A stretch of 64,000 nt of DNA, taken from the NCBI GenBank assembly GCA_029260575.1, contig JAJDDB010000023.1, positions 1-64,000 on the forward strand. The letters are read 5' to 3'. The stretch is from Phycisphaerales bacterium (lineage in GTDB: Bacteria; Planctomycetota; Phycisphaerae; Phycisphaerales; SM1A02). Position numbers and translations under genes: made by a program. The notes beneath the pieces are model-generated. The model was not told the DNA's origin, did not search any database, and worked only from the letters and a program-made list of their open reading frames with translations. This document shows positions 20,917-35,741 of the stretch, piece by piece. Positions within the stretch are counted from its first letter, which is position 1, and every line of letters begins with the position of its first letter.

Positions 20917-23900
20917 CTACGGGATTGTAGGAATCAAATTGCCCACTGTACCCGGACTAGTACCAAATGGGAAGAATACTTCTGCCCCACTTCCACCAAT
21001 CACTGGACGCGGGCCAACAATCCACGTTCCTTCTGACGGCGATACTATGAACGCCCTAGTTCGAGGCACATCAGGATAGGGAAGGTTGTATCGGCTATTC
21101 AGCAACGGCCGAGGCAACATACCTTCGGATGAGGGTGCCGCATATGTTCCAGGCGCTAGGCCTCGATCGGCCGATACGCGACTGAACTCAGGATCACCCG
21201 TTTCATATCGAATGAACGTCTCGTTCGGTTGCGTTTGACGATACGTTGACAGCCGCTGACCTTCCGGAATTGTATCAGCTGACGGTCGGGTTGGTGCAGG
21301 AACGGCAGCGGGGCGAAAGAGCTGGAATGCCTTTGCGTCTGGCATGTAGCCGGCACGCAAACCGGCTAAAGCCAATAGACCTTCACCGGTCAAATCGAAA
21401 GCGTCTCCGATTGCTTCAGCATCGCCTCTACACACACCCTCTGCAGTATCTGCGACATTTTCGCCAAAGCCTGCCATGGAACCACCAGCCATAATCAACG
21501 CGATGTCGCCCGTAGATGCTGACGAATCTGCCAGCGCAATCTCAGTTGCAGCCTGCATTAAGGCTGACTTCCTAAATGCCTCTTCGTCACCCATCATTCC
21601 GACTCGATTCTGAGTCAGAACTTTCGCTTCTTGCACAGTGCGATGAATACCAAGCAACTTCTTTTCCACGCGCGATCGCGAAGATTCTTGGAAACCGCGA
21701 ATTGCAGCCCTGTATTCTTCGTCACTTGCATTCCAGTCTCCAGCATATAACAACTTGAGCAATCCGAGTCCTAGTGGATCAATGGCCACCACTGGACTGC
21801 TTCGGACAAACTCATACAAACTTGCGCCATCCCCATACCCCGCCGGGTCGCGCGTGATGAACCGTCCGAGCTGCGGATCGTAACACCGATACCGCACCGC
21901 GTACTGCTGCGTTTCGTTGTTGAAGCAGTAGCCGTGGTAGCCGAGGATATTATCCGTCGGCGTCATGCCAGTCACCGGACTCAGCTCACCGGCGTTGATC
22001 CCGGAATCCGATGAAAGCCCGTCATATAAATTGAGGTCCGCGGTATCGACGTCGCCGTCCCGATCCAGATCGGCTTCGGCGCGATATCCCGCCTCGGTAA
22101 TGAGTGTCGGGTCCACTGGGAACTTGCGCACACCGGCCAATGATGAGACGATTGATCTGTCGCTGCCGTCACGGTCACCATCCGCATCGACGTCATACTT
22201 CGGATGATGCTGCGCAACGCCGTAGGCCGTGTAACTGTTGCGCTCCACGACCTCTGCAGCCTCATCGAGCTGCGCCACGGTCGTGCCCTGCACATCATCG
22301 AGGTGGTAGTAGTAGTCCACTTCTTCCGCAGGCGCGAGTACGAAATCGAAGGCACCGTCGCCATCGGTATCGGTCCGGCGCACCACGAGGTCGTCAATGC
22401 CGCGAAGACCCCACAGGTAATTGATATTCCGATCGATCGACCCCGGCGAACCCGAGGACCAGCTGTCCCAGACATCTTCATCGATGATCTGCCAGTCCGC
22501 GGTGTAGTACATGTCACGACGCTGATCGAGCATGCCGTCGAGATCGGTGTCAGTGCGACGCTTGATTCGATGATGCAGGCCGTTGTATTCGTACTCGCCG
22601 CGAGTCTCGGCGGTCTCCGACTGCATCACATTGTCGACGTCAACGTACTCGACCTTGACGAGACGATTCCACGCATCGTGCGTGTATCGAAACAGAAAAT
22701 CCTGATCTACATCTGCATCGGGAAACTCATGATCGTCAATGTTGCCGGCATCGTCGTACGAGATGTCGCCGGGATCAGTTGCATCGGTGTCCAATTCGGT
22801 GAGTTCGTTGATCGCATCATCGTGATCTCTCTTGACGAATGAGTCAACGTTCGGTCCCATGTCATCAAACGTGCCATATGGCGCCGTGTCATCGGTAATG
22901 ATTTGGTCCCAGTTGCCGAGCATGTCCAGCGACCAATTCTCGCCGCCGGAGTCCGCAGTGAACGCGAAGGTGGTCACCAATTCATATCCACTGCCGCGTG
23001 TTGCATGCGTCAATCTGTCCAGATCGTCATATGTGTATTTGTTACTCTGGTTCTGTTGAGCGCCTTGTCGTCGATCAAATGAAGCAGTTCGATTTGAATC
23101 TTCATCGTAGTTGTACAATCGTTCGACAATAGCCGGAATGTTCGAGACGGCTGAAGAGCTGCCGTGAATGGTGAAATCGCCATCGACCCATGTATGCCGC
23201 AGGACCCGGCCGAATCGATCGAATCCCGGATAGATGCCTGCGTTTTCGGTCTTCGTACCGAAGTTGCGTTCGCCGGTGTGGGACGTGGTGTAGTCGAGTT
23301 GTACGTCAACTTCATAGAGATCGGCCACAGCAAGCATCGTGACACCGATGTGGTCATACTCGACGCCAACGTCAAACGCCGAGGGTGAAACCATATCGTC
23401 TTCGAGCTTGACAACGCGACTAATCAGATCATCGAGCCCGTCCGCTGTGCCGTATTCAACCGTCCATCCGGCGCTGTTGACACCTTCAACTTCTGACTGG
23501 CGATAGTGATTCCTGGATTCGCTGGACGCATAGGAGTACGCGACCTTGGGGGTCGAACCATCGACTGCTCCTAGATGATCTTGCCAAACTTCATTGATGT
23601 CCCACGTCGTTTCGTAGGTGAATTCAACCTGATTGCGTATAGTTGACCCTGTTGTGACACCCGCATAGGACGTGACTTCATGAACACGACCAGCATTATC
23701 AAATGCGATACCGATCGACTTGATCCAGTCGTCCGCTTCTCCACTTGGAATGGTTGTGGCCTTGTCAAGCGTGACACGACCAAGCAGATCACGCTCATAC
23801 TCGTGAACCACGCCGCGTTGATCCTCAATGGTGATGACTTCGCCCAGTTGATTGTAGGCATGCAGCACCGAGTCACCGTCCGGGTATTTCACCTCGCGCA

Positions 23901-26900
23901 GAAGGTCGTTGGAATTCAGTTCTGACGGATGAGGGGAATCCGAGTCCGTAACGACGTACATGTATTCCGTAACCTGTGTCAGTCCACTGTCTTCTTCCGG
24001 TGCGCTTGTATCACTCGGAACGTGTAATACGCGTTGTGTCATATTGCCAATACCGTCATAAGCAAACGTCGTAACACGATCCTTGTCGAGCTCTGTATCG
24101 TCAAGGCCCCCGGTAATCTTCCATCGCAGATTTGTGTTGTCCCAATCTATGTCAGTTGCACTCACCTTGCCTGCGTCGTCTTCGGCGGCCTCCACAACAG
24201 CGATCGCGCGATTCAAATCATCATAGAAGTAATTCGTTATTTGCCCTCTTGAATCAGTGACTGATTCAACAAGACCGCGTTTGTCATAAGTTGTTTCGAC
24301 CTCAAGATCAGCTCCAACCGTCGTCCATGTGCGCGGATCCGCCGAATCATTGGCGGGCGCTGTGCCTCCATACTCAAAGTTGGTCTTGCGCGTGCCAAAG
24401 TTGATTTCACTGACAACTCGATCCGCAGTGTCATACTCGAACCCGAAATACGACGTTATAACTTTCTTGGCATCTTGTCCCGTGAACGCCGACAGTGCAC
24501 CAGCGACTGTGTCGTTGTCGTGCGTGCGAAGGTATTGCGTTGTCAGTGCCAGAAGATTCTGCTCATCAATGTAATCAAACACCGTCTGCTGCAGTACGAC
24601 ATCATCACTCACGACTGCTTCATGCGTCGATGTCGAATAAACGTCATCGTAATCATCGTCAAAAGTGCTCGCCCCGTTGTCACTGCCGTCGGTCACATAC
24701 GAAGTCTCAACGCGCCCAAGACCGTCATAGGTCATCTTTCGTCGAGGTGTATTCGGTCCCCACTCACCAACCGGACGACCGACTTCATCGAACCATCGAC
24801 GCACTTCCAAATATGTCGGACTGCCCTGGCTGGGATCAATCGCCGTCTTGACGCTGTACACGCGACCGCGCTGACTGTAGAAGATATCACGATATTGACT
24901 TCGGTTTGTTTCTGAATCGGCTGCGGGAGGTGAAGAAGGAGCTGAACTCGGTGCAAAGAGGGCCTCTTCGGTCACCCGATCAAGGTTGTCGTACGCCGTT
25001 GCGCTGGCATACGGCTTTTCGGGGCGAACGACGCCCGTCTGCCGATCACGGAAGTCATAGAAATAGTCCGTGATGCGATCAGTCGCATCCTCAGACTCAA
25101 CAACCCGAGTGAGATTCCCGTTGCCCACGCCTTGCGTACTTGTTCCAGATGCTCCGTCGTAAATCAGTTGCTGCGTCGTGACCATGTCACCCGTTTGGTC
25201 GTCGGGATCCGTGCCAATACCGGCGGCAGTCACTCGGTCAAGTACATCATAGGTGAATGACTGATATGTCCCGTTTGGATTCTTGGAATGAAGCAGACGC
25301 CCAAGCGCGTCGTAGGTAAATTCGCTTACATACTTCTCAGGCTCAAGTGCACCTGCATCGACATCATGCCATACAGTCGTCTCCTTAACCAGACCACTCA
25401 GATCATGAGTCACCGCACTTCGCGTCAACAGGTCGACAGCATCCTCGTCTAGGTCATAGATCGATATTGGCCACGTATATCCACTAGTTGCTGTGTAAAA
25501 AGTATAGGCCGCTTCAACCTCGCAGTCTTGTGTCGCAATCACGTCATTGTCAGCATTGCGCCACGTAATTGTTGCGGGACCGTTGTACTCACTGCCTGCC
25601 GACAACTCGTGCGGCAAACGAATTTCTGCGTAGTACTCGATTCCATCGCGATCCGGAGAGTCACGCATTTCACGCCTGATATACGTGTGAACTCCACCCG
25701 GAGATGTCGTCTGCTGCACGCGACCAAGCAGGTCATAGACGATCTCCGTCGTCAATGAGTCTCCGTCCGAATTCCGCCCATCAAAGTGCACGTCTGTGGG
25801 AAGACTCCCCGGCAGGTCACCGGCTAAAAACTCCGTGCCTGCTACCGGCGAATCGGCATTCCGTTCAATCTGCGTTGGTAGCCCGGTACCAACATGAAAC
25901 TCACGCCTCGTGAGCACATTGTCAGCTGTACGACTCCAGTAATTGCGCCCCTGCGTGTCGAAAAACTCGTGGGTGTAGAAATGGCCGCCGGGTCCGTATT
26001 CGTCTTCAGTACTCGTGTCATCTGCCTCAGCCTCAACCTTCGTTTCAATCCACTCAATGTCGTCATCATCGACGCTCGCGCCATGAAACTCGTATAGAAA
26101 CTCGATCTTCTCTATGTCGTCGGCATTGGAACTGCTTGCACTTTGATAGCGTTGAATACTGGTAGGCAGGTGTCTTCGTTCATTTCCAGAATCCGCACTC
26201 GGATACTCGATCTCTTCGATGAGTGTGCAATCCGTGCAGCTGTCGTTGACGTCAAAATTCGGATCGCCCTCTTTGATCTCACGCTCGATCAGACGATTGT
26301 CGTCGTTAAAATCGAACACGTACACCAATCCAGAGCTCTCCTCTGTGATTGACGGTGCGGTGGTACCGTTGCCGGCGGTATACCCGCTCAGCGATGATGG
26401 CGTGTACTCTGCAATTCGATTGCCTGCATCGTCGTACTTATATTGCCGAAGCCATGTGCCAACATTGGCTGTTGTGTCGTCCTGCACGGCAATGATCTGC
26501 ACATATGGCACGTCCTCGTCACCGAGTTTCTCCATTTCATAGAAATAGGTGCGATAGTCGTCAAAGCCGCTCGCGCCGAGGCTCTCTTCGACACACCTGA
26601 TCGTTGTGGCTCCGGGAAGAGAACCATCACGATCCCAATACGTGTAGGACTTGCGTTTGCCTTGTGTCCCCGAACCCCCACAACCACATGCTGACTGAAT
26701 ATGTTGCACCAACACGCGGCCGGGACTAGCCTCATATTCTTCAATAACCTTCGCGGCAAGATCAGCAACGTAGTATGTGTCCATTCCATCTGAGAACGTA
26801 GCGCCGTCATCTTGACTGAGTAGATGTGTTGCGGCTTCTTCGACATCATCTGTGTTGCCAGTTGTGTCTCCTTGCGCAAAATACTCAATCTGCTCGGGCA

Positions 26901-27618
26901 AAATCACCATCTTGAGCTGATGCTCATCGCCAGCCCAAATGAATCGCTCACTACCCATCTCTCCAACTGAACCGGATTCGTTGCCATCATCTCGGTGATA
27001 CCTGTACTGCGTAATCAACGGCCGCCACGCTTCGCCAAAAAAACCACTGTCCGGATCAATACGAACGAGACGTGTTACCTGAACGAGATCACCGGTTGTA
27101 CCGAGATCGTCACTTAGATCCGTGTCAGTATCATCCATATACGTATAGATGATGTGTTGCGTGACTACTGGAACGGTCGTTCCTTCTTCGCCGTTGTAGC
27201 GGGCGACCTTGACTTCCTTTAAACGTCCCTGATTGGCCGATGACGTTTTTGAATCCCAGAAGAAGCTGATGTCTGCTTCCGGAAACGTCGCCTCATCAAG
27301 ATCACCGTTGATTCGGATCTGCGTAACGCGTGCTACAGTTGGATTGCTGTAGATCGTGTACTTGTAAGTATGGGCATTGCCATAAATGTCTCGTCGTTGG
27401 AGCAGGAGACCTTCGTACGGCCCTGTGTCAGTCACATCAAAGTAACCCGACGTTTCACCTGAACCATTCTCTCGATAGAAATCCATCTCCCACTGCCCGG
27501 CCTCAATCACTCTCCAAACAGGAATGATCAAATCATCGTGCAATCCGTCAATCGTTACGGTCGCTCGCGTCACGATCTGGGTCGTTGATCCAGGAACTGG
27601 CCAAGGGGGACCGTCCAT
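20917..27618 (-). CDS. Giant RHS/YD-repeat protein, 5'-truncated by IS-D (RHS-2)
   Basis: The frame encodes 2233 residues from the ATG at 27618. Its first residues (STTQIVTRATVTIDGL, then VWRVIEAGQWEMDFYRENG) align with RHS-1 around residue 400. The signal peptide, Cys-rich region and shell entry are therefore missing, cut by IS-D at 27644. YD repeats (YDALGRL, YDGLGRV, YDDLDRL) are followed by a dockerin-like insert (YDVDADGDRDG, ADLDRDGDVDTAD) near 1806-1866 and the core GRFITRDPAGYGDGASLYE ending DPLGL. A 284-residue tip follows. Its last ~110 residues (ETFIRYETGDPEFSRV, GTYAAP) recall ADP-ribosyltransferase-like toxins. Without a signal it may be silent. Confidence 0.85.
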   Translation of the reverse strand: MDGPPWPVPGSTTQIVTRATVTIDGLHDDLIIPVWRVIEAGQWEMDFYRENGSGETSGYFDVTDTGPYEGLLLQRRDIYGNAHTYKYTIYSNPTVARVTQIRINGDLDEATFPEADISFFWDSKTSSANQGRLKEVKVARYNGEEGTTVPVVTQHIIYTYMDDTDTDLSDDLGTTGDLVQVTRLVRIDPDSGFFGEAWRPLITQYRYHRDDGNESGSVGEMGSERFIWAGDEHQLKMVILPEQIEYFAQGDTTGNTDDVEEAATHLLSQDDGATFSDGMDTYYVADLAAKVIEEYEASPGRVLVQHIQSACGCGGSGTQGKRKSYTYWDRDGSLPGATTIRCVEESLGASGFDDYRTYFYEMEKLGDEDVPYVQIIAVQDDTTANVGTWLRQYKYDDAGNRIAEYTPSSLSGYTAGNGTTAPSITEESSGLVYVFDFNDDNRLIEREIKEGDPNFDVNDSCTDCTLIEEIEYPSADSGNERRHLPTSIQRYQSASSSNADDIEKIEFLYEFHGASVDDDDIEWIETKVEAEADDTSTEDEYGPGGHFYTHEFFDTQGRNYWSRTADNVLTRREFHVGTGLPTQIERNADSPVAGTEFLAGDLPGSLPTDVHFDGRNSDGDSLTTEIVYDLLGRVQQTTSPGGVHTYIRREMRDSPDRDGIEYYAEIRLPHELSAGSEYNGPATITWRNADNDVIATQDCEVEAAYTFYTATSGYTWPISIYDLDEDAVDLLTRSAVTHDLSGLVKETTVWHDVDAGALEPEKYVSEFTYDALGRLLHSKNPNGTYQSFTYDVLDRVTAAGIGTDPDDQTGDMVTTQQLIYDGASGTSTQGVGNGNLTRVVESEDATDRITDYFYDFRDRQTGVVRPEKPYASATAYDNLDRVTEEALFAPSSAPSSPPAADSETNRSQYRDIFYSQRGRVYSVKTAIDPSQGSPTYLEVRRWFDEVGRPVGEWGPNTPRRKMTYDGLGRVETSYVTDGSDNGASTFDDDYDDVYSTSTHEAVVSDDVVLQQTVFDYIDEQNLLALTTQYLRTHDNDTVAGALSAFTGQDAKKVITSYFGFEYDTADRVVSEINFGTRKTNFEYGGTAPANDSADPRTWTTVGADLEVETTYDKRGLVESVTDSRGQITNYFYDDLNRAIAVVEAAEDDAGKVSATDIDWDNTNLRWKITGGLDDTELDKDRVTTFAYDGIGNMTQRVLHVPSDTSAPEEDSGLTQVTEYMYVVTDSDSPHPSELNSNDLLREVKYPDGDSVLHAYNQLGEVITIEDQRGVVHEYERDLLGRVTLDKATTIPSGEADDWIKSIGIAFDNAGRVHEVTSYAGVTTGSTIRNQVEFTYETTWDINEVWQDHLGAVDGSTPKVAYSYASSESRNHYRQSEVEGVNSAGWTVEYGTADGLDDLISRVVKLEDDMVSPSAFDVGVEYDHIGVTMLAVADLYEVDVQLDYTTSHTGERNFGTKTENAGIYPGFDRFGRVLRHTWVDGDFTIHGSSSAVSNIPAIVERLYNYDEDSNRTASFDRRQGAQQNQSNKYTYDDLDRLTHATRGSGYELVTTFAFTADSGGENWSLDMLGNWDQIITDDTAPYGTFDDMGPNVDSFVKRDHDDAINELTELDTDATDPGDISYDDAGNIDDHEFPDADVDQDFLFRYTHDAWNRLVKVEYVDVDNVMQSETAETRGEYEYNGLHHRIKRRTDTDLDGMLDQRRDMYYTADWQIIDEDVWDSWSSGSPGSIDRNINYLWGLRGIDDLVVRRTDTDGDGAFDFVLAPAEEVDYYYHLDDVQGTTVAQLDEAAEVVERNSYTAYGVAQHHPKYDVDADGDRDGSDRSIVSSLAGVRKFPVDPTLITEAGYRAEADLDRDGDVDTADLNLYDGLSSDSGINAGELSPVTGMTPTDNILGYHGYCFNNETQQYAVRYRCYDPQLGRFITRDPAGYGDGASLYEFVRSSPVVAIDPLGLGLLKLLYAGDWNASDEEYRAAIRGFQESSRSRVEKKLLGIHRTVQEAKVLTQNRVGMMGDEEAFRKSALMQAATEIALADSSASTGDIALIMAGGSMAGFGENVADTAEGVCRGDAEAIGDAFDLTGEGLLALAGLRAGYMPDAKAFQLFRPAAVPAPTRPSADTIPEGQRLSTYRQTQPNETFIRYETGDPEFSRVSADRGLAPGTYAAPSSEGMLPRPLLNSRYNLPYPDVPRTRAFIVSPSEGTWIVGPRPVIGGSGAEVFFPFGTSPGTVGNLIPTIP

Positions 27619-27643: not shown

Positions 27644-29015
27644 GACCCGCTGATTAAGAGTTAGCGTGCAGGCCCCTCTCACAGGCCGGAATCGGCCCTG
27701 CCTCGACGAAAAAGCCACTGTATGACCACTGGAGCGCCAGAAGAACTCCACTGTATTTGGCGCGCTTTTGGCGCGCGCGGGGTCAAAACGCTGCTGGCGG
27801 GGGACCATCGGTGTACACGGTTGCGCTTGCCTGCAGGCTGCTGCGCGTGGGGTGTAATAACTCTGTTCCACTTCCGGAGCAGTTGCTCATGACCCGTTTT
27901 TTCCATCCTCTATTGTTCTGGATCGCGCGCAGCACAGAATCCGAGCTGACGAAATATCTGCAGTATCTGAAAGAGGAAAACCAATTGCTGCGGGGTCGTC
28001 TGCCGAAGCAGGTCCGCACGACGCCGGCTGAACGGGCGCGATTGGTGCAGTTTGGATTGGAATTGGGGGACGCCATCTACGATCTCGTGACCATTGTCCG
28101 TCCTCAGACGTTCAGACGGTGGATCAGAGAGCAGGGCAACAGTTGTCAACGTCGAGTGGCGCCACATCGGCCCATTGGTCGTCCTCGAACGGCCGAGTCC
28201 ATTCGACAGCTGGTTGTTCAACTGGCGCGAGAGAACACGTGGGGGTATACGAGAATTCTTGGTGAGTTACGCAAGCTTGGCATCAATTCGATCTCCCGAG
28301 CAACGGTGCGCAACATCCTGAAGGAACACGGGATCAATCCTGCGCCGGAACGAGATCACGGAACATGGTCACAGTTCCTGAAGATGCATGCTGATACGCT
28401 CTGGGCATGTGATTTCTTCTCGATGCCTGTTTGCACACTTCGCGGCATGGTTCCGTACTTCGTGTTGTTCTTCATCCATCTGAAGAGTAGGGGAGTGTGG
28501 GTGTCATCTGCCACTGCACACCCAGATCGTCATTGGACGACTCAGCAGGCTCGGAACTTCTGTATGGATCATGGTTACGCGACTACGCGTTTGATCCGTG
28601 ATCACGACCGTAAGTTCACAGCATCATTTGATGACGTTTTCGTATCTGAACAAGCGAGGATTGTGCTGCCGACAGTGCGATCACCGGCACTCAATGCATA
28701 CGCAGAACGTTGGGTTCGATCGATCAAACATGAATGCCTGAATCACTTCGTCATACTCGGCGAACGACACCTGAATCACCTGGTGTACGAGTACGCTGCC
28801 TTCTACAACAAGTGTCGGCCGCATTCGGGGCGTGGTTATCTGCCGCCGTTAAGGGTAGGGCCGTATCCTGGGGATGGCATAGTCCGTAGCGACAACCGCT
28901 TGGGCGGTTTGCTGAAACACTATTACCGACAGGCGGCGTAGCTGGCTCAGCCGCGCGAAATCAAGCGAGAAGTATATGGCTGCAGGTAGCTGTGCGCAGA
29001 GTTTTTGAACGGGTC
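27644..29015 (+). mobile_element. IS-D copy 1 (complete, 1372 bp)
   Basis: Ends are GACCCGCTGATTAAGAG on the left and the inverse TTGAACGGGTC on the right. The second IS-D copy (57679-59050) has exactly the same length, which fixes the boundaries well. The copy has removed the 5' part of RHS-2, and it ends 36 bp before the -35 box of the his operon promoter. Confidence 0.85.
27889..28941 (+). CDS. IS-D transposase (rve/DDE integrase-core family)
   Basis: The product is 350 residues from the ATG at 27889, which has CCGGAG upstream. The frame is open further upstream, but that part does not resemble the family. The layout is a hydrophobic N-terminus ([20 protein letters not shown]), a coiled coil ([14 protein letters not shown]), HTH-like TFRRWIRE and PIGRPRT. 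The rve core has Asp in WACDFFSM, Asp in LIRDHDRKF and Glu in RSIKHECLNH. The C-terminus is YYRQAA. It moves IS-D and appears intact. Confidence 0.85.
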   Translation: MTRFFHPLLFWIARSTESELTKYLQYLKEENQLLRGRLPKQVRTTPAERARLVQFGLELGDAIYDLVTIVRPQTFRRWIREQGNSCQRRVAPHRPIGRPRTAESIRQLVVQLARENTWGYTRILGELRKLGINSISRATVRNILKEHGINPAPERDHGTWSQFLKMHADTLWACDFFSMPVCTLRGMVPYFVLFFIHLKSRGVWVSSATAHPDRHWTTQQARNFCMDHGYATTRLIRDHDRKFTASFDDVFVSEQARIVLPTVRSPALNAYAERWVRSIKHECLNHFVILGERHLNHLVYEYAAFYNKCRPHSGRGYLPPLRVGPYPGDGIVRSDNRLGGLLKHYYRQAA

Positions 29016-29051: not shown

Positions 29052-29079
29052 TTGACTCCGCTGGTTTCGGACCTATTCT
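29052..29079 (+). promoter_or_regulatory. his operon promoter
   Basis: The -35 box TTGACT (29052-29057) and the -10 box TATTCT (29074-29079) are separated by 16 bases. Transcription would start at about 29085-29088, practically at the ATG of the leader peptide, so the leader mRNA may be leaderless or nearly so. Confidence 0.65.
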
Positions 29080-29087
29080 GACTAGTT

Positions 29088-29156
29088 ATGAGTTCGTACA
29101 TCTTCTTCAGTCATCATCATGATCATGCCCATCACCTGCGCGGGAGCTGGCTGTGA
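29088..29156 (+). CDS. hisL: His-rich leader peptide of the his operon attenuator
   Basis: The frame has 22 codons, ATG 29088 to TGA 29156, and contains SHHHDHAHHLRG, six His codons within eight positions. It lies between a good promoter and a terminator hairpin, directly upstream of hisG. In the classical mechanism, scarce charged His-tRNA stalls the ribosome on the His run and the terminator fails to form. The last codons include GCTGGCT (29146-29152). The same heptamer forms the 5' arm of the terminator (29196-29202), so a ribosome-free leader could pair with the terminator's 3' arm instead. Confidence 0.85.
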   Translation: MSSYIFFSHHHDHAHHLRGSWL

Positions 29157-29183
29157 TTGTGTATTGAGGTTGTAGTGACTTTC

Positions 29184-29224
29184 AAAACGATCGATGCTGG
29201 CTTCAGGCCAGCATTTCTCGTTTT
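29184..29224 (+). terminator. his attenuator terminator hairpin
   Basis: ATGCTGGC (29194-29201), loop TTCAG, GCCAGCAT (29207-29214) form a perfect 8-bp stem, followed by TTTCTCGTTTT. An outer pair AAAACGA (29184-29190) and TCGTTTT (29218-29224) can extend it. It lies 38 bases after the leader stop and 62 before the hisG ATG. Confidence 0.75.
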
Positions 29225-29285
29225 GGGCAATTCCTGAATTCGAGTGTGCCGCCTGTTGCCGGAGCTATTACCGGAGATCAAGGCG

Positions 29286-30161
29286 ATGCAGCTCATTCGC
29301 GATTCGAAAACCATACGCTTTGCGATTCCAAAGGGACGCATGTACGACGGTGTCGCCCGTCTGCTTCAGGAAGCAGGTCTTCAGCTCTCTACGACAGGGC
29401 GTGGCTACCGTCCTGCGCTTTGTGTTGAGGGCTTCGAAGTCAAAATCCTGAAGCCTCGAGCGATCGTGGAAATGCTGAATATCGGCGCACGCGATCTGGG
29501 GTTCGCAGGTGCAGATTGGGTCGAAGAAACAGGTGCGGATCTGGTTGAACTGATCGACACAGGTCTCGATCAGGTTCGACTGATCGTAGCGGCTCCGGAA
29601 TCGATTCTTGGGGAAAACAAACTTCCTGATCGTTCGCTCATCGTGGCATCAGAGTATGCCAACATCGCTTCGAAATGGGTTGCCAACAAGAATCTCAATG
29701 CCACGATTCTTCGTTCGTACGGCGCAACAGAAGTTCTGCCGCCGGAAAACGCTGATTGCATTATTGACAACACTGCGACTGGTTCGACGCTTGCAGCCAA
29801 CGGTCTGCGAATCATTGATGAGCTTATGACATCATCGACTCGGTTGTATGCATCTCAAGACGCTATGCGGTGTCCAACCAAGCGAACACGCATCGAAAGC
29901 AATGTCTTGCTTGTGCAATCGGTTCTTGAAGCTCGGCAGCGAGTCATGCTGGAACTTAACGTTTCCGCTGACAAACTGACCAGCGTTATCGACGTTCTGC
30001 CGTGCATGCGTGAGCCTACAGTGGCACCGATGCATCGCGCCGCCGGTTTCGCTGTAAAAGTAGCCATTTTGCGTGCGCAATTGCCCGAAGTGATTCCGTT
30101 GGCAAAGGCTCGTGGCGGCACGGACATCGTGGTCACCATCCCGGAGCAAATAGTGCCATGA
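29286..30161 (+). CDS. hisG: ATP phosphoribosyltransferase, long form (HisG)
   Basis: HisG joins ATP and PRPP in the first step of histidine synthesis. The product is 291 residues from ATG 29286, preceded by GGAGATCAAGG. A GTG at 29244 is possible but less likely. Diagnostic segments are RFAIPKGRMYDGV, GARDLGFAGADWVEE, and the PRPP-loop region ENADCIIDNTATGSTL near residue 160. Length and a C-terminal ~85-residue ACT-like domain (ELNVSADKLTSVIDVLPCMREPTVAP) identify the long form, which is feedback-inhibited by histidine and needs no HisZ. Its stop overlaps hisC by four bases. Confidence 0.93.
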   Translation: MQLIRDSKTIRFAIPKGRMYDGVARLLQEAGLQLSTTGRGYRPALCVEGFEVKILKPRAIVEMLNIGARDLGFAGADWVEETGADLVELIDTGLDQVRLIVAAPESILGENKLPDRSLIVASEYANIASKWVANKNLNATILRSYGATEVLPPENADCIIDNTATGSTLAANGLRIIDELMTSSTRLYASQDAMRCPTKRTRIESNVLLVQSVLEARQRVMLELNVSADKLTSVIDVLPCMREPTVAPMHRAAGFAVKVAILRAQLPEVIPLAKARGGTDIVVTIPEQIVP

Positions 30162-31237
30162 GTTACGTTTATCTCCCAAATAATTCGATCGTGTCCCCTG
30201 CACGTCGAGTGTCTGGACTGAACCCGTATCGGCCGCCGAGGCACGATCGACAGGACATGATGCGCCTTGATGCCAATGAAGGTGCGCCACCGTCTCCTCA
30301 GATTTGCGCCGTCCTGCGTTCGATCACCGCTGAGGCGTTGTGCAGATACCCAGATGCGTCAACTCTTGAGTCTGCGATTGCTACCTCTTGGGGCATCACT
30401 CCCGAACGGGTCGTTGTAACCAACGGTGGTGATGATGCGATTGATCGTGTGTGTCGCGCTGTTCTTGAACCTGGTCGAACAATGTTGCTGCACACGCCTA
30501 CTTTCAAGATGATTGAGCGTTATGCTCATCTTGCGTACGGGTCTGTGCGGTTAATTTCGTGGTTCGATGGATCATTTCCAACCGAACAGTTCATTGCAGC
30601 AATAGATTTCGGTACACGCCTCATCGCGATTGTGTCGCCAAACAATCCGACAGGTGGAGTTGTTCCGTTGGAAGTGATCACTGCAGTCGCCGCGGCAGCA
30701 AAACAAGTAGGTGCGGTCGTCTTGCTCGATTTCGCCTATGTCGAATTTGCCGACCACGATCCGACAGCAGTGCTTCTTGATGCAGGCAATATCGTAATAG
30801 TTCGGACATTTTCGAAAGCGCTGGGGCTAGCCGGCCTGCGAGTCGGTTATGCGATCGCACCGCCGAAGATTGCCTCATGGCTGCGCGCCGTCGGCGGGCC
30901 GTATCCGGTCACATGTGTTTCCTTGAAATTGGCTGAAGAAATGTTCGCCAATATTGAATTGCGAAGTTCTTTCATTACGGTCGTTCAACAGCAACGAGAT
31001 GAACTTGTGACAACATTGCAGGAGTGTGGCGCAATGCCTATGCCATCACAGGCAAACTTCGTAATCGCACGATTTGATGATGTCGCAGCACTGCAGCAGC
31101 GGTTGTCTGAAACAGGAATCGCAGTGCGCGGCTTTGGGTCAGATTCGGGACTCTCCGAGTATCTGCGTATCACTGTTCCGGGGGATAAACAGCTTTTCGG
31201 GAAGCTTCAACTGGCACTGAGAGGGTGTGCCGAATGA
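30158..31237 (+). CDS. hisC: Histidinol-phosphate aminotransferase (HisC)
   Basis: This PLP enzyme converts imidazole-acetol phosphate and glutamate to histidinol phosphate. The product is 359 residues of aminotransferase fold I. Visible landmarks are RLDANEGAPPSP near the N-terminus, SPNNPTGGVVP for substrate/PLP contacts, and LLDFAYVEF with the Asp that contacts the pyridine nitrogen. The PLP Lys lies in RTFSKALGLAGLRVGYAI. It overlaps hisG upstream and hisB downstream (ATGA in each case), which implies tight translational coupling. Confidence 0.93.
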   Translation: MSYVYLPNNSIVSPARRVSGLNPYRPPRHDRQDMMRLDANEGAPPSPQICAVLRSITAEALCRYPDASTLESAIATSWGITPERVVVTNGGDDAIDRVCRAVLEPGRTMLLHTPTFKMIERYAHLAYGSVRLISWFDGSFPTEQFIAAIDFGTRLIAIVSPNNPTGGVVPLEVITAVAAAAKQVGAVVLLDFAYVEFADHDPTAVLLDAGNIVIVRTFSKALGLAGLRVGYAIAPPKIASWLRAVGGPYPVTCVSLKLAEEMFANIELRSSFITVVQQQRDELVTTLQECGAMPMPSQANFVIARFDDVAALQQRLSETGIAVRGFGSDSGLSEYLRITVPGDKQLFGKLQLALRGCAE

Positions 31238-31830
31238 CCAAACAACGATCAGCCAAAGTACAGCGCACAACGAGTGAGACCGACGTGTATGTCGCGATCA
31301 CACTGAATGGTACCGGTGAGTCAGATATTACGACTGGACTGGGGTTCCTCGATCACATGCTGGAGTCAGTGGCACGACATGCTCGCATCAATCTGTCGCT
31401 GCGCTGCACTGGAGATGTTCAGGTCGATGATCATCACACTGTCGAGGATTGTGCGCTGGTGTTTGGACAGGCATGCAGTGACGCGCTCGGTGAACGGTGT
31501 GGTATCGAACGCTTTGGGTACACGTACGCACCTCTTGATGAATCGTTGTGCCGTGCAGTCGTCGATTTCTCAGGTCGACCGCACGCTACAGTAAATCTTG
31601 ACTTCAGCCGAGACATGATCGGTGCGGTTTCTACGGAGAATATATCTCACTTCTTTAGATCATTTACTGTAACAGCACGCTGCACGCTGCACATAGACCT
31701 AATTCGCGGTGAGAACGATCATCACATCGTAGAAGCAGCTATGAAGGCCTTCGCGCTCGCCCTACGAAACGCAATTCACCTTAATGCGTTGTCTTCGGCT
31801 GTTCCTTCAACCAAAGGAACACTGACATGA
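31234..31830 (+). CDS. hisB: Imidazoleglycerol-phosphate dehydratase (HisB)
   Basis: It dehydrates imidazoleglycerol phosphate to imidazole-acetol phosphate with two Mn ions. The product is 198 residues from ATG 31234, which overlaps the hisC stop; an upstream GTG at 31225 is less likely. The metal-binding His clusters are clear: FLDHMLESVARHA, DDHHTVED and ENDHHIVEAAMKAFA. It is the monofunctional form, without the N-terminal histidinol-phosphatase domain of enterobacterial HisB. That activity must therefore be encoded elsewhere. Confidence 0.93.
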   Translation: MTKQRSAKVQRTTSETDVYVAITLNGTGESDITTGLGFLDHMLESVARHARINLSLRCTGDVQVDDHHTVEDCALVFGQACSDALGERCGIERFGYTYAPLDESLCRAVVDFSGRPHATVNLDFSRDMIGAVSTENISHFFRSFTVTARCTLHIDLIRGENDHHIVEAAMKAFALALRNAIHLNALSSAVPSTKGTLT

Positions 31831-32447
31831 CTGCATCTGAGATTACGATTGTGAACACTGGTGTTGCTAATACCGCATCGCTTGTGGGTGCGTTTGAGAG
31901 ATGTGGTGTGCGTGCTGTCGTCACACATGCTGCAGATCGCATTGATCGTGCCGCACTTCTCGTACTGCCAGGCGTTGGCACGTTCGGTGCAGTGATGTCC
32001 CAGCTGCGCGAGCAGCGCCTTGTTGATCCGCTACGTCGGAGAATTATCGAGAATCGTCCAACGCTCGCAATCTGTGTCGGTATGCAGTTGCTCTGCATGG
32101 CTTCTGGAGAATCGCCCAGTATCGACGGCCTACAGATTGTTGACACAATCGTCCTCCGCTTTCCCAACGGAGTGCGCCGTCCACAGTTCGGATGGAATCG
32201 TGTGTATCCGACAAGTGGATGTACTCTCATAGAACCGGGATTCGCATACTTTGCAAATTCATATCGAGTAGTCGATATGCCGTTCGGGTGGGAACAGGTT
32301 CGCGCCGACCATGGCGGATCTTTTGTCGCGGCATTTGAACGTGGGAACATCCTCGGCTGCCAGTTTCACCCAGAATTATCCGGCCGCTGGGGTACGAAGC
32401 TTCTGCAACGCTGGTTGACTCGGTCACAGGAGTGTGTGCCATGCTGA
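31827..32447 (+). CDS. hisH: Imidazole glycerol phosphate synthase, glutaminase subunit (HisH)
   Basis: It releases ammonia from glutamine and passes it to HisF. The product is 206 residues, a class I glutamine amidotransferase. The nucleophile Cys lies in LAICVGMQLLC, and the His/Glu of the triad are in GCQFHPELSG. The N-terminal NTGVANTASLVGAFERCG is typical. The oxyanion strand and the GVGTFG loop are present. Its start overlaps the hisB stop by four bases, and its stop overlaps the hisF start region. Confidence 0.92.
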   Translation: MTASEITIVNTGVANTASLVGAFERCGVRAVVTHAADRIDRAALLVLPGVGTFGAVMSQLREQRLVDPLRRRIIENRPTLAICVGMQLLCMASGESPSIDGLQIVDTIVLRFPNGVRRPQFGWNRVYPTSGCTLIEPGFAYFANSYRVVDMPFGWEQVRADHGGSFVAAFERGNILGCQFHPELSGRWGTKLLQRWLTRSQECVPC

Positions 32448-33202
32448 CCAGTCGAGTCATTCCATGCCTTGATATTCGTGATGATCGAGTGGTCAAAGGC
32501 GTTCGTTTTGCGAATCTACGCGATGCAGGCGATCCGGTGCAGCAAGCACAGTTTTATGAAGCACAGGGCGCAGACGAATTGGTCATCCTTGACGTGTCGG
32601 CAACTGTCGGGCAACAAACGACAACACTTGATGTTGTACGGGCGGTGCGGGCACGTCTGTCTCTACCCTTGACGATTGGGGGCGGCATTCGATGCATTGA
32701 AGATGCTTTGTCACTTCTTCGTGCGGGAGCGGACAAGGTGGCTGTTAACACCGTCGCCGTCGAGAGACCAGAAGTTCTGTCCGAGCTTGCAGCCGTTGTC
32801 GGCAGACAGTGTGTGGTTCTTGCTTGTGACGCAGCTCAGTGCCCAAATTCAGCACAGCAATGGGAAATTGTTACGCGATCGGGAACACATCGAACGGGTA
32901 TTGACATAATGAAGTGGGTGGCGCAAAGCGAACGTCTTGGTGTTGGGGAAGTATTGCTGACAAGCTGGGATCGTGACGGCACCCAGAGTGGTTACGACCT
33001 CGAATTGCTTGCAGCAGTGCGCACAGCAGTGGACATACCAATCATTGCTTCAGGCGGCGCATCGTCGGCGGAACACATGATTGCCGCATTCAACACTGGC
33101 GCAGATGCAGTTCTTGCTGCTTCGATCTTTCATGATTCACACACAACAGTGCATGAAATCAAGACCGTTCTTGCTGAGTCCGGCGTGGAGGTGAGAATAT
33201 GA
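32441..33202 (+). CDS. hisF: Imidazole glycerol phosphate synthase, cyclase subunit (HisF)
   Basis: It closes the imidazole ring and releases AICAR, using ammonia from HisH. The product is 253 residues, a (beta-alpha)8 barrel. The start at ATG 32441 lies inside the last codons of hisH. Catalytic Asp11 (IPCLDIRDDRVVKG) and Asp ~130 (LACDAAQ) are present, as are phosphate-binding loops (TIGGGIRC, ASGGASS). The loop after Asp130 is slightly unusual (AAQCPNSAQQ), where many HisF proteins have basic residues. Confidence 0.92.
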   Translation: MLTSRVIPCLDIRDDRVVKGVRFANLRDAGDPVQQAQFYEAQGADELVILDVSATVGQQTTTLDVVRAVRARLSLPLTIGGGIRCIEDALSLLRAGADKVAVNTVAVERPEVLSELAAVVGRQCVVLACDAAQCPNSAQQWEIVTRSGTHRTGIDIMKWVAQSERLGVGEVLLTSWDRDGTQSGYDLELLAAVRTAVDIPIIASGGASSAEHMIAAFNTGADAVLAASIFHDSHTTVHEIKTVLAESGVEVRI

Positions 33203-34467
33203 TCGTTCCATCGATTGACATTATGGATGGTCGTGCAGTGCAACTTGTCGAAGGCAAAGAGAAAGTGCTCGATGCAGGTGATCCGCGTCCACTTGCAAAG
33301 CACTTCGGCCGCATCGGCGAGGTCGCGGTCATCGATCTCGATGCAGCGCTCGGATGTGGTAATAACACAGGCGTCATTCGAGAATTGCTTGAATTGGCGC
33401 CATGCTGTGTTGGTGGGGGGATTCGTGATGTGCAGGCCGCTCTCGAGTGGTTGGATGCAGGTGCGCACAAAGTAATTCTTGGCACAGCGGCAAAACCAGA
33501 GATCCTGCGTCATCTGCCTTGTGATCGAATGATCGCTGCACTTGACACAAGAGGCGATCGTGTCGTTGTTGAGGGTTGGACAAAGGTAACCAATGCAAAT
33601 GTTCTGCAATGCATTGATGAGTTGCGCGGATATGTAAGCGGTTTTCTAGTTACGTTCGTTGAACACGAAGGCCGAATGGGTGGTTTGCCACATGATCGTG
33701 TTCAAGAGCTGGTTGAAAGATGCAAAGGGGCTCGTTTGACTGTTGCTGGTGGAGTGCGAAATCCTGAAGACGTTGCTGCAGCCGATCGCGTGGGTGCCGA
33801 TGTGCAGGTCGGGATGGCGCTATACACCGACTCGTTCGATCTTGCAGACGGATTCTGCGCGCCGCTGAAATCCGACCGTTCCGATGGATTGTGGCCGACA
33901 ATCGTCACCGATCCGACTGGTAACGTACTTGGATTGGTCTATTCGTCGAGGCAAAGCATTCGAGAATCTCTGGAGTGTGGGTATGGCACCTATTACTCGC
34001 GCTCTCGCAATCGACTGTGGCGCAAAGGAGAGTCATCTGGAAACGCGCAGGAATTGTTACGCATTGGTGTAGATTGTGATCGGGATGCGCTTCAGTTTAC
34101 AGTTCGACAACACGGAGAAGGATTTTGCCACACCGGACAATCAAGTTGCTTTGGCAGTACACGCGGAATCGCACAGTTGCAGCGTACAATCATACAGCGT
34201 GCATTGAATGCACATCCAGATTCATACACGCGACGACTGTTGAACGACAAACAATTGTTGAAGTCGAAACTACTTGAGGAAGCTACCGAACTCGCAGAAG
34301 CGAACAGCCGGGATGATGTTGCATGGGAAAGTGCTGATCTTCTGTACTTCACACTGGTGACAGCAACGCGAGCTGGCGTGTCATTGGAACATATCGAACG
34401 AGAGCTCGATCAGCGATCACTTCAGGTGTCGCGCAGATCTGGCGATGCCAATGAGGGCGTGCGATGA
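33199..34467 (+). CDS. hisA/hisIE: Trifunctional HisA-HisI-HisE fusion
   Basis: One 422-residue protein carries three consecutive pathway activities. Residues 1 to ~228 are HisA (ProFAR isomerase barrel), with catalytic Asp7 in PSIDIMDGRAVQL, Asp115 in LDTRGD, and phosphate loops CVGGGIRD and VAGGVRNPED. Residues ~230-325 are HisI (phosphoribosyl-AMP cyclohydrolase), with SRSRNRLWRKGESSGN, DCDRDAL and the zinc-site sequence FCHTGQSSCF. Residues ~330-415 are HisE (phosphoribosyl-ATP pyrophosphatase), with KLLEEATELAEA and WESADLLYFTL. HisI-HisE fusions are common; HisA joined in front of them is unusual. It overlaps hisF and hisD by four bases each. Confidence 0.9.
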   Translation: MIVPSIDIMDGRAVQLVEGKEKVLDAGDPRPLAKHFGRIGEVAVIDLDAALGCGNNTGVIRELLELAPCCVGGGIRDVQAALEWLDAGAHKVILGTAAKPEILRHLPCDRMIAALDTRGDRVVVEGWTKVTNANVLQCIDELRGYVSGFLVTFVEHEGRMGGLPHDRVQELVERCKGARLTVAGGVRNPEDVAAADRVGADVQVGMALYTDSFDLADGFCAPLKSDRSDGLWPTIVTDPTGNVLGLVYSSRQSIRESLECGYGTYYSRSRNRLWRKGESSGNAQELLRIGVDCDRDALQFTVRQHGEGFCHTGQSSCFGSTRGIAQLQRTIIQRALNAHPDSYTRRLLNDKQLLKSKLLEEATELAEANSRDDVAWESADLLYFTLVTATRAGVSLEHIERELDQRSLQVSRRSGDANEGVR

Positions 34468-35741
34468 TAGATGCGAACACTCCTTTTCTGCGTCGAGTCA
34501 GTTGTGCCGAAATCTCGAAAACTGCGATGCTTTCGCTTGATGATGCCACACTCCAATCAGCACGTGAAATCGTCAACAACGTTCGCACGGAGGGAGAAGT
34601 TGCCATACGGCGATATGTTGAGAAGTTTGAGCAAAGAAAACCGGGCACGCAGTTGACGTGCTGCCGAAGGGAAATGCAGGAGGCATTAGACACGCTTGAC
34701 AGCGAATCGCGAGCCATCCTTGAACGGACTGCGCAACGAATACAGAAATTTGCAGAAGCGCAGCACCGCACCATTCGTGAGATGTCAATTGCTGTTGCAG
34801 GCGGCGAAGCTGGGCACACAATCGAACCCATTGAATCAGCAGGGTGTTATGCCCCGGCGGGGAGATATCCACTCGTCTCTTCGGTTCTTATGACTGCCAT
34901 CACAGCTCGAATCGCAGGTTGTTTGCGTGTTGTGGTTACATCACCAAGTACATCACCGATCATGTTGGCTGCGGCAGCGATTGCAGACGCCGATGAATTT
35001 CTCGTTGCGGGTGGGGCGCACAGTATTGCTGCAATGGCGTACGGATTTACCGGATTCGAACCCTGTGACATGATCGTTGGCCCGGGAAACAAGTGGGTTA
35101 CAGCAGCCAAGCACATCGTCAGCAACTTAGTAGGAATTGATATGCTCGCAGGGCCATCGGAATTACTCGTGCTCGCGGATGAATCAGCAGATCCTGCCTT
35201 GATAGCATCCGACTTGCTTGCACAGGCAGAACACGACGAAGATGCTCGCGTGATGCTTGTGACCGACGATGTCGAGCTTTATGAGCACGTTGAACGTCAG
35301 ATCGAAGTTCAATTGGAGGCATTACCGACTGGGGAGTGTGCTAGACGCGCATTAACTGCAAGTATGGCGTGCGTCGCACAAGACATGGACACCGCTATTC
35401 AGATCGTCAATAGATTGGCGCCTGAGCACGTTGAAATCATGACAGCCAATGCGAATGGAGTCGCATCACGGATACGAAATGCTGGCGCTATATTCATCGG
35501 GGCCGAATCCGCACAAGTATGTGGCGACTTCGGTGCCGGGCCGAATCACACGCTTCCCACCTCAGGTACAGCTCGATTCCAGGCAGGTTTGTCTGTACTG
35601 CATTTTCTGCGGTTGCGAACTTGGTTACGTATTACTGATATCGGAGAAGCGCGAGAATTCTTCTCTGATGTCCAGCATCTCGCTGCATTTGAAGGTTTGC
35701 CTGGGCACGCGGTTTCAGCAAAGCAGCGGAGCAGAATATGA
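34464..35741 (+). CDS. hisD: Histidinol dehydrogenase (HisD)
   Basis: It performs the last two oxidations, histidinol to histidine, with NAD and zinc. The product is 425 residues, normal for the family. Visible signatures are YAPAGRYPLVSSVLMTAI, VGPGNKWVTAAKHIV, MLAGPSELLVLADESADP, the zinc-site stretch LLAQAEHDEDA, EHVEIM and GPNHTLPTSGTARF. It closes the his operon. A miniature IS-B derivative begins 15 bases after the stop. No histidinol-phosphate phosphatase follows. Confidence 0.93.
   Translation: MIDANTPFLRRVSCAEISKTAMLSLDDATLQSAREIVNNVRTEGEVAIRRYVEKFEQRKPGTQLTCCRREMQEALDTLDSESRAILERTAQRIQKFAEAQHRTIREMSIAVAGGEAGHTIEPIESAGCYAPAGRYPLVSSVLMTAITARIAGCLRVVVTSPSTSPIMLAAAAIADADEFLVAGGAHSIAAMAYGFTGFEPCDMIVGPGNKWVTAAKHIVSNLVGIDMLAGPSELLVLADESADPALIASDLLAQAEHDEDARVMLVTDDVELYEHVERQIEVQLEALPTGECARRALTASMACVAQDMDTAIQIVNRLAPEHVEIMTANANGVASRIRNAGAIFIGAESAQVCGDFGAGPNHTLPTSGTARFQAGLSVLHFLRLRTWLRITDIGEAREFFSDVQHLAAFEGLPGHAVSAKQRSRI

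Follow-up and report, generated by a model that had tools for sequence, protein, structure and literature searches.

The his operon of a Phycisphaerales bacterium (GCA_029260575.1, contig JAJDDB010000023.1) is very probably governed by a ribosome-mediated transcription attenuator in which a leaderless mRNA encodes the leader peptide. The window, by which we mean the whole stretch of DNA analysed, comprises 64,000 nucleotides (positions 1–64,000, forward strand). As a motif around the leader stop codon at many loci, GATSGT, is complementary to His codons (CACCATC, CACGATC), we divided the RNA into four segments: A, the His codons; B, the stop region; and C and D, the 5′ and 3′ arms of the terminator. 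RNA polymerase would initiate at or beside the leader ATG, and a ribosome would load on the 5′ AUG without a Shine–Dalgarno site. With no ribosome on the RNA, A would pair with B and C with D, and transcription would end. When charged His-tRNA is ample, the ribosome would reach the stop codon and cover B, leaving C:D to terminate. When it is scarce, the ribosome would stall on the His codons and cover A; B could then pair with C while D has yet to be transcribed, and RNA polymerase would continue into hisG. The leader stop codon itself would form part of B, and the switch would be kinetic: with D the last segment to be transcribed, B:C would have an opportunity to form. Sequence and comparison establish the component parts, how they are arranged and conserved, and the promoter–start distance; the alternative structures are predicted by folding. 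What makes the case for a predicted attenuator strong is the joint conservation of codon bias, promoter distance and alternative pairing; the exact antiterminator, a product of modelling, is the weakest part of that case.

An earlier note on this DNA had described a promoter, a His-rich leader frame and a hairpin before hisG, and all three lie where it placed them, on the + strand, as do all features in this paragraph. A consensus scan located a −35 box, TTGACT (29052–29057), and a −10 box, TATTCT (29074–29079), with a 16-nt spacer and 9 of 12 matches to a sigma-70-like consensus; a TTGAC-type box is found in most relatives. The gap between the −10 box and the leader ATG is 8 nt, and transcription is expected to start at about 29086–29088. 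The leader ORF (29088–29156) runs from an ATG at 29088–29090 to a TGA at 29154–29156, and its translation, MSSYIFFSHHHDHAHHLRGSWL, agrees with the reported 22-codon frame with six His in eight codons. These are residues 9–16, and they correspond to segment A, the His-rich control codons (HHHDHAHH, 29112–29135). The leader is the sole ORF of 8–40 codons with at least six His in eight codons on either strand of the window, and no ORF with that His density occurred in 30 first-order Markov windows of 64 kb. No Shine–Dalgarno-like tetramer could be read upstream of its ATG. Segment B, consisting of the last leader codons, the stop codon and the following bases, spans 29143–29161 in the pairing tests and folding. 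The hairpin (29193–29215) has eight Watson–Crick pairs between two flanking G–U pairs and a TCA loop, so that its stem, previously called perfect, deserves the word for its eight-pair core but not for the G–U pairs. Its 5′ arm occupies 29193–29202 (segment C plus the bases immediately preceding it, as it figures in the folding at the H11 stall, covers 29187–29204), and its 3′ arm, segment D, recovered by the hairpin scan and by comparison with relatives, occupies 29206–29215. The T tract that follows in the same scan (29216–29225) is interrupted: TCTCGTTTTG. The heptamer GCTGGCT, reported to be repeated, was found at 29146–29152 and 29196–29202. Further downstream come a Shine–Dalgarno-like GGAG (29273–29276, read from the sequence) and hisG, the first structural gene (29286–30161; Pfam HisG, E = 7.1e-34; HisG_C, E = 5.4e-16). 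ORFs and Pfam matches place hisC, hisB, hisH, hisF, a hisA–hisI–hisE fusion and hisD at 30158–35741, with hisC and hisH assigned by class and context. The his operon behind the leader is complete.

The distance between promoter and start codon was examined in 110 leaders: 87 from the window's own family (f1) and a second family of the same order (f2), all satisfying a leader rule (four or more His within eight codons of a reading frame), and 23 picked by hand from a wider scan for at least four His, which inform the promoter distance, not prevalence. The start codon was taken as the first one met when reading upstream from the His run, and the 110 nt before it were scanned for the best sigma-70-like promoter. 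The best-scoring promoter ends 5–10 nt ahead of the start codon in 100 of the 110, with a peak at 8 nt, compared with a mean of 17.9 in shuffled upstream sequences (s.d. 3.7, maximum 27; 100 rounds); in both real and shuffled sequences, ties were counted if one of the tied promoters lay at 5–10 nt. Loci with a single best promoter gave 87 out of 97, and the proportion was 82/87 in the f1 and f2 leaders and 18/23 in the wider-scan leaders. The start codon is ATG in 98 leaders and GTG in 12, and a Shine–Dalgarno-like tetramer stands at the usual place in 10. Because so many of the leaders (100 of 110) have a promoter ending just ahead of the start codon, the mRNA is predicted to be leaderless, with the start codon no more than about 3 nt from the transcript 5′ end, and we regard this as a strong claim from sequence. 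That the leader ATG nearly coincides with the transcript start of a his attenuator, as had been noted, is thus well supported by conservation, for a 5′ end that is predicted. Were these instead ordinary his attenuators with a 5′ UTR, the promoter adjacent to the ATG going unused, the best promoters 21–61 nt away in three wider-scan loci (L132, L143 and L179) would be accounted for; the leader start site is itself a prediction, and hisL of Escherichia coli K-12, put through the same promoter script, has no best promoter at 5–10 nt. Set against the fixed promoter distance (100 leaders, 17.9 in shuffles) and the few Shine–Dalgarno-like sites, we consider this very unlikely.

Conservation of the leader was assessed at 95 hisG loci, namely all 12 f1 matches and 83 of 88 f2 places; those left out were fragments or contig ends (G210, G229 twice, G180 and G108:C173). 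The sequences compared are nearly all MAGs, and offsets in the hisG start (25 nt in L057; 1 nt in some minus-strand stretches) shift distances to hisG, not leader or terminator sequences. The leader rule is satisfied in 87 of the 95. The earlier note had named non-conservation in relatives as a way for its proposal to fail, and the comparison upstream of hisG found both His codons and hairpin conserved. Four of the eight exceptions belong to one genus of f2, g107, in which a TTGAC box is kept together with a VTKALHQLQHCMKP.. type ORF containing two to four His; the peptides (L071, L074, L076 and L079) share the core ALHQLQHCMKP and variants of it, and their specificity may be in the course of being lost or altered. 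Another exception, L075, has MRSGHHHARRSRAHRPCR downstream of its TTGAC box, and L056 has a dispersed His leader resembling those of L058 and L059. Upstream of hisG in L107 and L109, a His-rich leader is absent. In two further families, f5 and f6, whose HisG is 32–34% identical to that of the window, 13 of 19 matches were examined (six had no locus), and none of the 13 loci has a His leader: their short upstream ORFs contain at most one His per eight codons, and no reading window rises above three His. Counting against an attenuator are the interrupted T tract of the window, the 8 of 95 loci that miss the His rule and the 10 of 110 leaders that miss the promoter distance.

Across the 110 leaders, His makes up 32% of the residues after the start (384 CAT and 317 CAC codons), and Arg, the second commonest, 9%. 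A functional peptide would be another reason for a His run, for instance in metal binding, of which HHHDHAHH could be capable; equally, the hairpin might merely terminate a transcript from upstream, where a transposase-like ORF ends at 28941. We consider either of these extremely unlikely. The listed peptides have little in common outside the His run, 87 of 95 loci have the ORF ahead of hisG, against 0 of 13 with the other HisG type, and His codons and stop regions match each other better than permuted ones (see below). The hairpin, for its part, sits downstream of the leader's own promoter.

An intrinsic terminator between leader and first gene, as ribosome-mediated attenuation would have it, is predicted from the sequence. 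In relatives, most stems are variants of AACGCCGGC-loop-GCCGGCGTT with a T-rich stretch behind them. Removal of the 2 of 110 loci that gave no terminator, and of 22 of the remaining 108 as redundant, left 86 non-redundant loci, in which the terminator starts 21–53 nt (median 34) past the leader stop codon. A terminator-related motif (GCCGGTGA, GCTGGCTGTGA or GTCGGCGATGA) is frequent in the final leader codons and stop codon, and GATSGT around the stop codon occurs at 27 of the 86 loci, compared with 1.5 in shuffles. The leaders of four Spirochaetota (L135, L145, L156 and L160) read through GATGATCGT in frame and end in VAMIVIP, VTMIVIP or VAMIVLP; in the other leaders this RNA motif lies at or past the stop codon. 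In the Spirochaetota leaders it thus seems to be the RNA motif, not the peptide, that is kept.

Pairing between segments was analysed by a permutation test, in which mean duplex energies (kcal/mol) of each locus's own segments were compared with those of segments from other loci (86 loci, 10,000 permutations). No permutation was as low as the observed value for C:D (−19.4 versus −15.1) or A:B (−17.7 versus −15.7); with overlap barred, A:B gave −18.8 versus −17.9 (13 of 10,000 as low). For B:C the values were −11.2 and −10.8 (68 of 10,000), and for B:D −11.0 and −10.8 (1,318 of 10,000), and pairing of the spacer with C was not better than with permuted partners. Against shuffled B, the gains were similar for B:D (−11.01 versus −9.48) and B:C (−11.19 versus −9.51). 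The evidence that B may have been selected to fit C rather than D is therefore real but modest, because C hardly varies. A first test, on 85 loci with close relatives included, had given 0 of 5,000 as low for B:C and 74% for B:D; the non-redundant repeat weakened the B:C signal, and it is on its figures that we rely.

These energies bear on a variant put forward in the earlier note, in which the end of the leader pairs directly with the terminator 3′ arm (B:D) and there is no antiterminator involving the 5′ arm. The end of the window leader does form the stronger isolated duplex with the 3′ arm (−14.0, versus −9.8 with the 5′ arm). Among 85 loci, the 3′ arm was the better partner in isolated duplexes in 39 and the 5′ arm in 45, and B:D beats shuffled B about as B:C does. 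With the ribosome stalled at H16 and both arms made, the window RNA is expected to have 4.19 pairs with the 3′ arm and 2.02 with the 5′ arm. What stands against direct capture of the 3′ arm is that B:D gains nothing over permuted partners, that at the H11 stall a forced B:D structure (−25.4 kcal/mol) is 4.3 kcal/mol less stable than a forced B:C structure (−29.7 kcal/mol), and that D is transcribed last, so that B:C can form before the 3′ arm exists. We hold the variant to be unlikely.

The preferred scheme, with B:C as antiterminator, was examined by folding each of the 86 RNAs in three states: ribosome-free, with a ribosome at codon three of the His run, and with one at the stop codon. The downstream edge of the footprint was assumed to fall 13 nt beyond the first base of the codon in the A site. 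With C just made, the mean number of expected B:C pairs is 11.5 in stalled and 3.4 in ribosome-free RNAs; stalling adds at least two pairs in 67 of the 86 and never removes two. At least five B:C pairs are expected in 78 stalled and 23 ribosome-free RNAs, and at least six A:B pairs form in 80. C:D is nearly complete both in ribosome-free RNAs and in those with a ribosome at the stop codon (9.8 of 10.3 pairs on average). Among stalled RNAs, 69 of 86 have four or more bases of C paired with B in the minimum free energy (MFE) structure, compared with 48 (s.d. 3.4) when B is shuffled. When C was swapped for that of another locus, 76–79 of 86 kept at least five B:C pairs, suggesting that the switch is a shared design and not the result of fine tuning. 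An exclusive antiterminator that a ribosome at the stop codon would block is thus a prediction of folding only, the covariation signal being modest.

In the window, the model RNA free of ribosomes pairs 29118–29129 with 29149–29151 and 29153–29161 before C is made. Once C has been made, 5.1 A:B and 4.7 B:C pairs are expected, so the A:B protector looks leaky in the model; when D is also made, A:B and the terminator form together. With the ribosome stalled anywhere from H9 to H15 before D is made, about 7.9 B:C pairs are expected (MFE −23.0 to −24.1). At H11, 29143–29151 pairs with 29196–29204 and 29154–29160 with 29187–29193, giving a 9-bp and a 7-bp helix. With D made, equilibrium favours the terminator at H9, a mixture at H11 and H13, and mainly B:C at H15; at H16, B:D equals C:D. 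The free optimum at H11 is the terminator, at −29.8 kcal/mol. As the terminator is as stable as the antiterminator and wins for H9, the switch would have to be kinetic. A ribosome at the stop codon leaves the terminator only. Folding with and without a ribosome, proposed in the earlier note, bears out a terminator and an alternative in the stalled state, but with the 5′ arm, not the 3′ arm, as the preferred partner at H11.

The distribution of the leader was followed in a wider scan of named genome contigs for window-type HisG, from which the best 80 of 459 loci were taken; 78 had enough upstream DNA and 53 of these have at least four His in eight codons. Planctomycete or Phycisphaer- titles account for 37 of the 53. 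The remaining 16 include four Spirochaetota, all with the promoter 7 nt away; three Acidobacteriota, two leaderless by geometry and one, L179, with a gap of 21; four loci titled Myxococcota by NCBI, two of which (L132 and L143) probably have a 5′ UTR; one Armatimonadota; and three Pseudomonadota MAGs. The label of the sixteenth, a ‘Cyanobacteria’ record (L131), is probably wrong, because it adjoins a Phycisphaerales record in the HisG tree and its leader peptide is identical to that of L052 in f2. The leader is also present in two Pirellulaceae/Planctomycetaceae MAGs (L177 and L178), and an alphaproteobacterial Geminicoccaceae-like group among the same best 80 loci is without it. A phylum-wide draw of 292 genomes gave a HisG match in 168, and among 21 further planctomycete loci examined, a His leader complete with start codon was present in 13 (two resemble loci already seen). 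In 10 of these 13 the best promoter lies at 5–10 nt, two of the ten being weak. Of six loci examined there with a more distant HisG (<240 bits), five show at most three His, and the sixth, L215, has a His-rich stretch without a start codon. A HisG tree built by a quick method (78 rows, 9 near-duplicates omitted) leaves 39 of 75 inner branches unresolved and requires the leader trait to change 16 times; its resolution does not suffice to separate inheritance from transfer. We give an even chance to the reading that one old attenuator type, leaderless and with the stop codon in the antiterminator, follows one HisG/his-operon lineage across Planctomycetota, Spirochaetota, Acidobacteriota, Myxococcota, Armatimonadota and some Pseudomonadota MAGs; the type might be a portable module.

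Known RNA families were searched with Rfam. The whole window gave no match at gathering thresholds, and ten loci gave none to His_leader (RF00514) at E values up to 1. The T-box riboswitch, presumably among the models of the library used, had no match in the window or the ten loci. The only match, in the His leader region of a deltaproteobacterial record (L181, 1028–1138), was to Thr_leader, at 28.8 bits (E = 0.13), below the gathering threshold of 55. The planctomycete system resembles enterobacterial hisL in that consecutive His codons lie in a short leader ORF, a terminator precedes hisG and alternative structures depend on the ribosome. It differs in that the start codon directly follows the promoter with no Shine–Dalgarno-like site: the site that hisL has in its 5′ UTR is absent from the window, and the tetramer occurs in just the 10 of 110 leaders given above. 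Mycobacterial polycysteine leaderless short ORFs, described by Canestrari in 2020, are reportedly amino-acid-responsive attenuators. They involve cysteine and, according to a citing passage, translation attenuation, whereas the planctomycete leader has a predicted transcription terminator.

His-leader attenuators are described in Firmicutes (PMC9413887; PMC2965389 for hisZ/hisS in bacilli). They share with the planctomycete leader a His leader peptide and a terminator/antiterminator outside Proteobacteria; they belong to a different phylum and have three to five His codons in a row, and the text consulted makes no mention of a leaderless start for them. The trpL attenuator RNA of Sinorhizobium meliloti has its mapped 5′ end at the leader ORF ATG (PMC7298713); it concerns Trp codons, trpE(G) and an alphaproteobacterium, and its 5′ end is mapped, whereas that of the planctomycete leader is predicted. 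Leaderless attenuator leaders (trp, Cys) and His-leader attenuators outside Proteobacteria (Firmicutes) are already known. The open-access text searched yielded neither a leaderless his leader nor, in planctomycetes, any amino-acid attenuator, his included. A comparative study of this class by Lopatovskaya, from 2010, may contain predictions in some of these phyla.

If the reading of a single old type is true, leaderless and not Shine–Dalgarno initiation would be the rule for his attenuation in many bacteria. Amino-acid attenuation would be extended to a phylum for which the open-access search showed none, and tight coupling of transcription and translation on nascent RNA is predicted in planctomycetes. 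The leaders would provide about 100 natural leaderless ORFs with a clear translation read-out. Because the distance from promoter to start codon is so constant, these leaders make it testable whether the first ribosome gains from a leaderless start in reaching the control codons before the terminator/antiterminator decision.

Elsewhere in the same genome, no Trp-rich leader was seen upstream of a trpE-type match (PF04715), and none was found at the single PF00682 match, which is not established as leuA. A HisG match is present in 12 of 181 genomes of f1, and in 4 of 104 among the most complete; the others may be histidine auxotrophs or users of another HisG. Upstream of the leader, the transposase-like ORF (27757–28941, + strand; rve_3, E = 6.9e-10) ends about 110 bp before the his promoter, and no clear terminal inverted repeats, sought as signs of an inserted element that brought the promoter, flank it. 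A 2,233-aa ORF (20917–27618, − strand) looks by eye like an RHS/YD-repeat protein. Within the operon, an ORF of 422 aa (33199–34467, + strand) unites HisA (PF00977), HisI (PF01502) and HisE (PF01503) in one protein.
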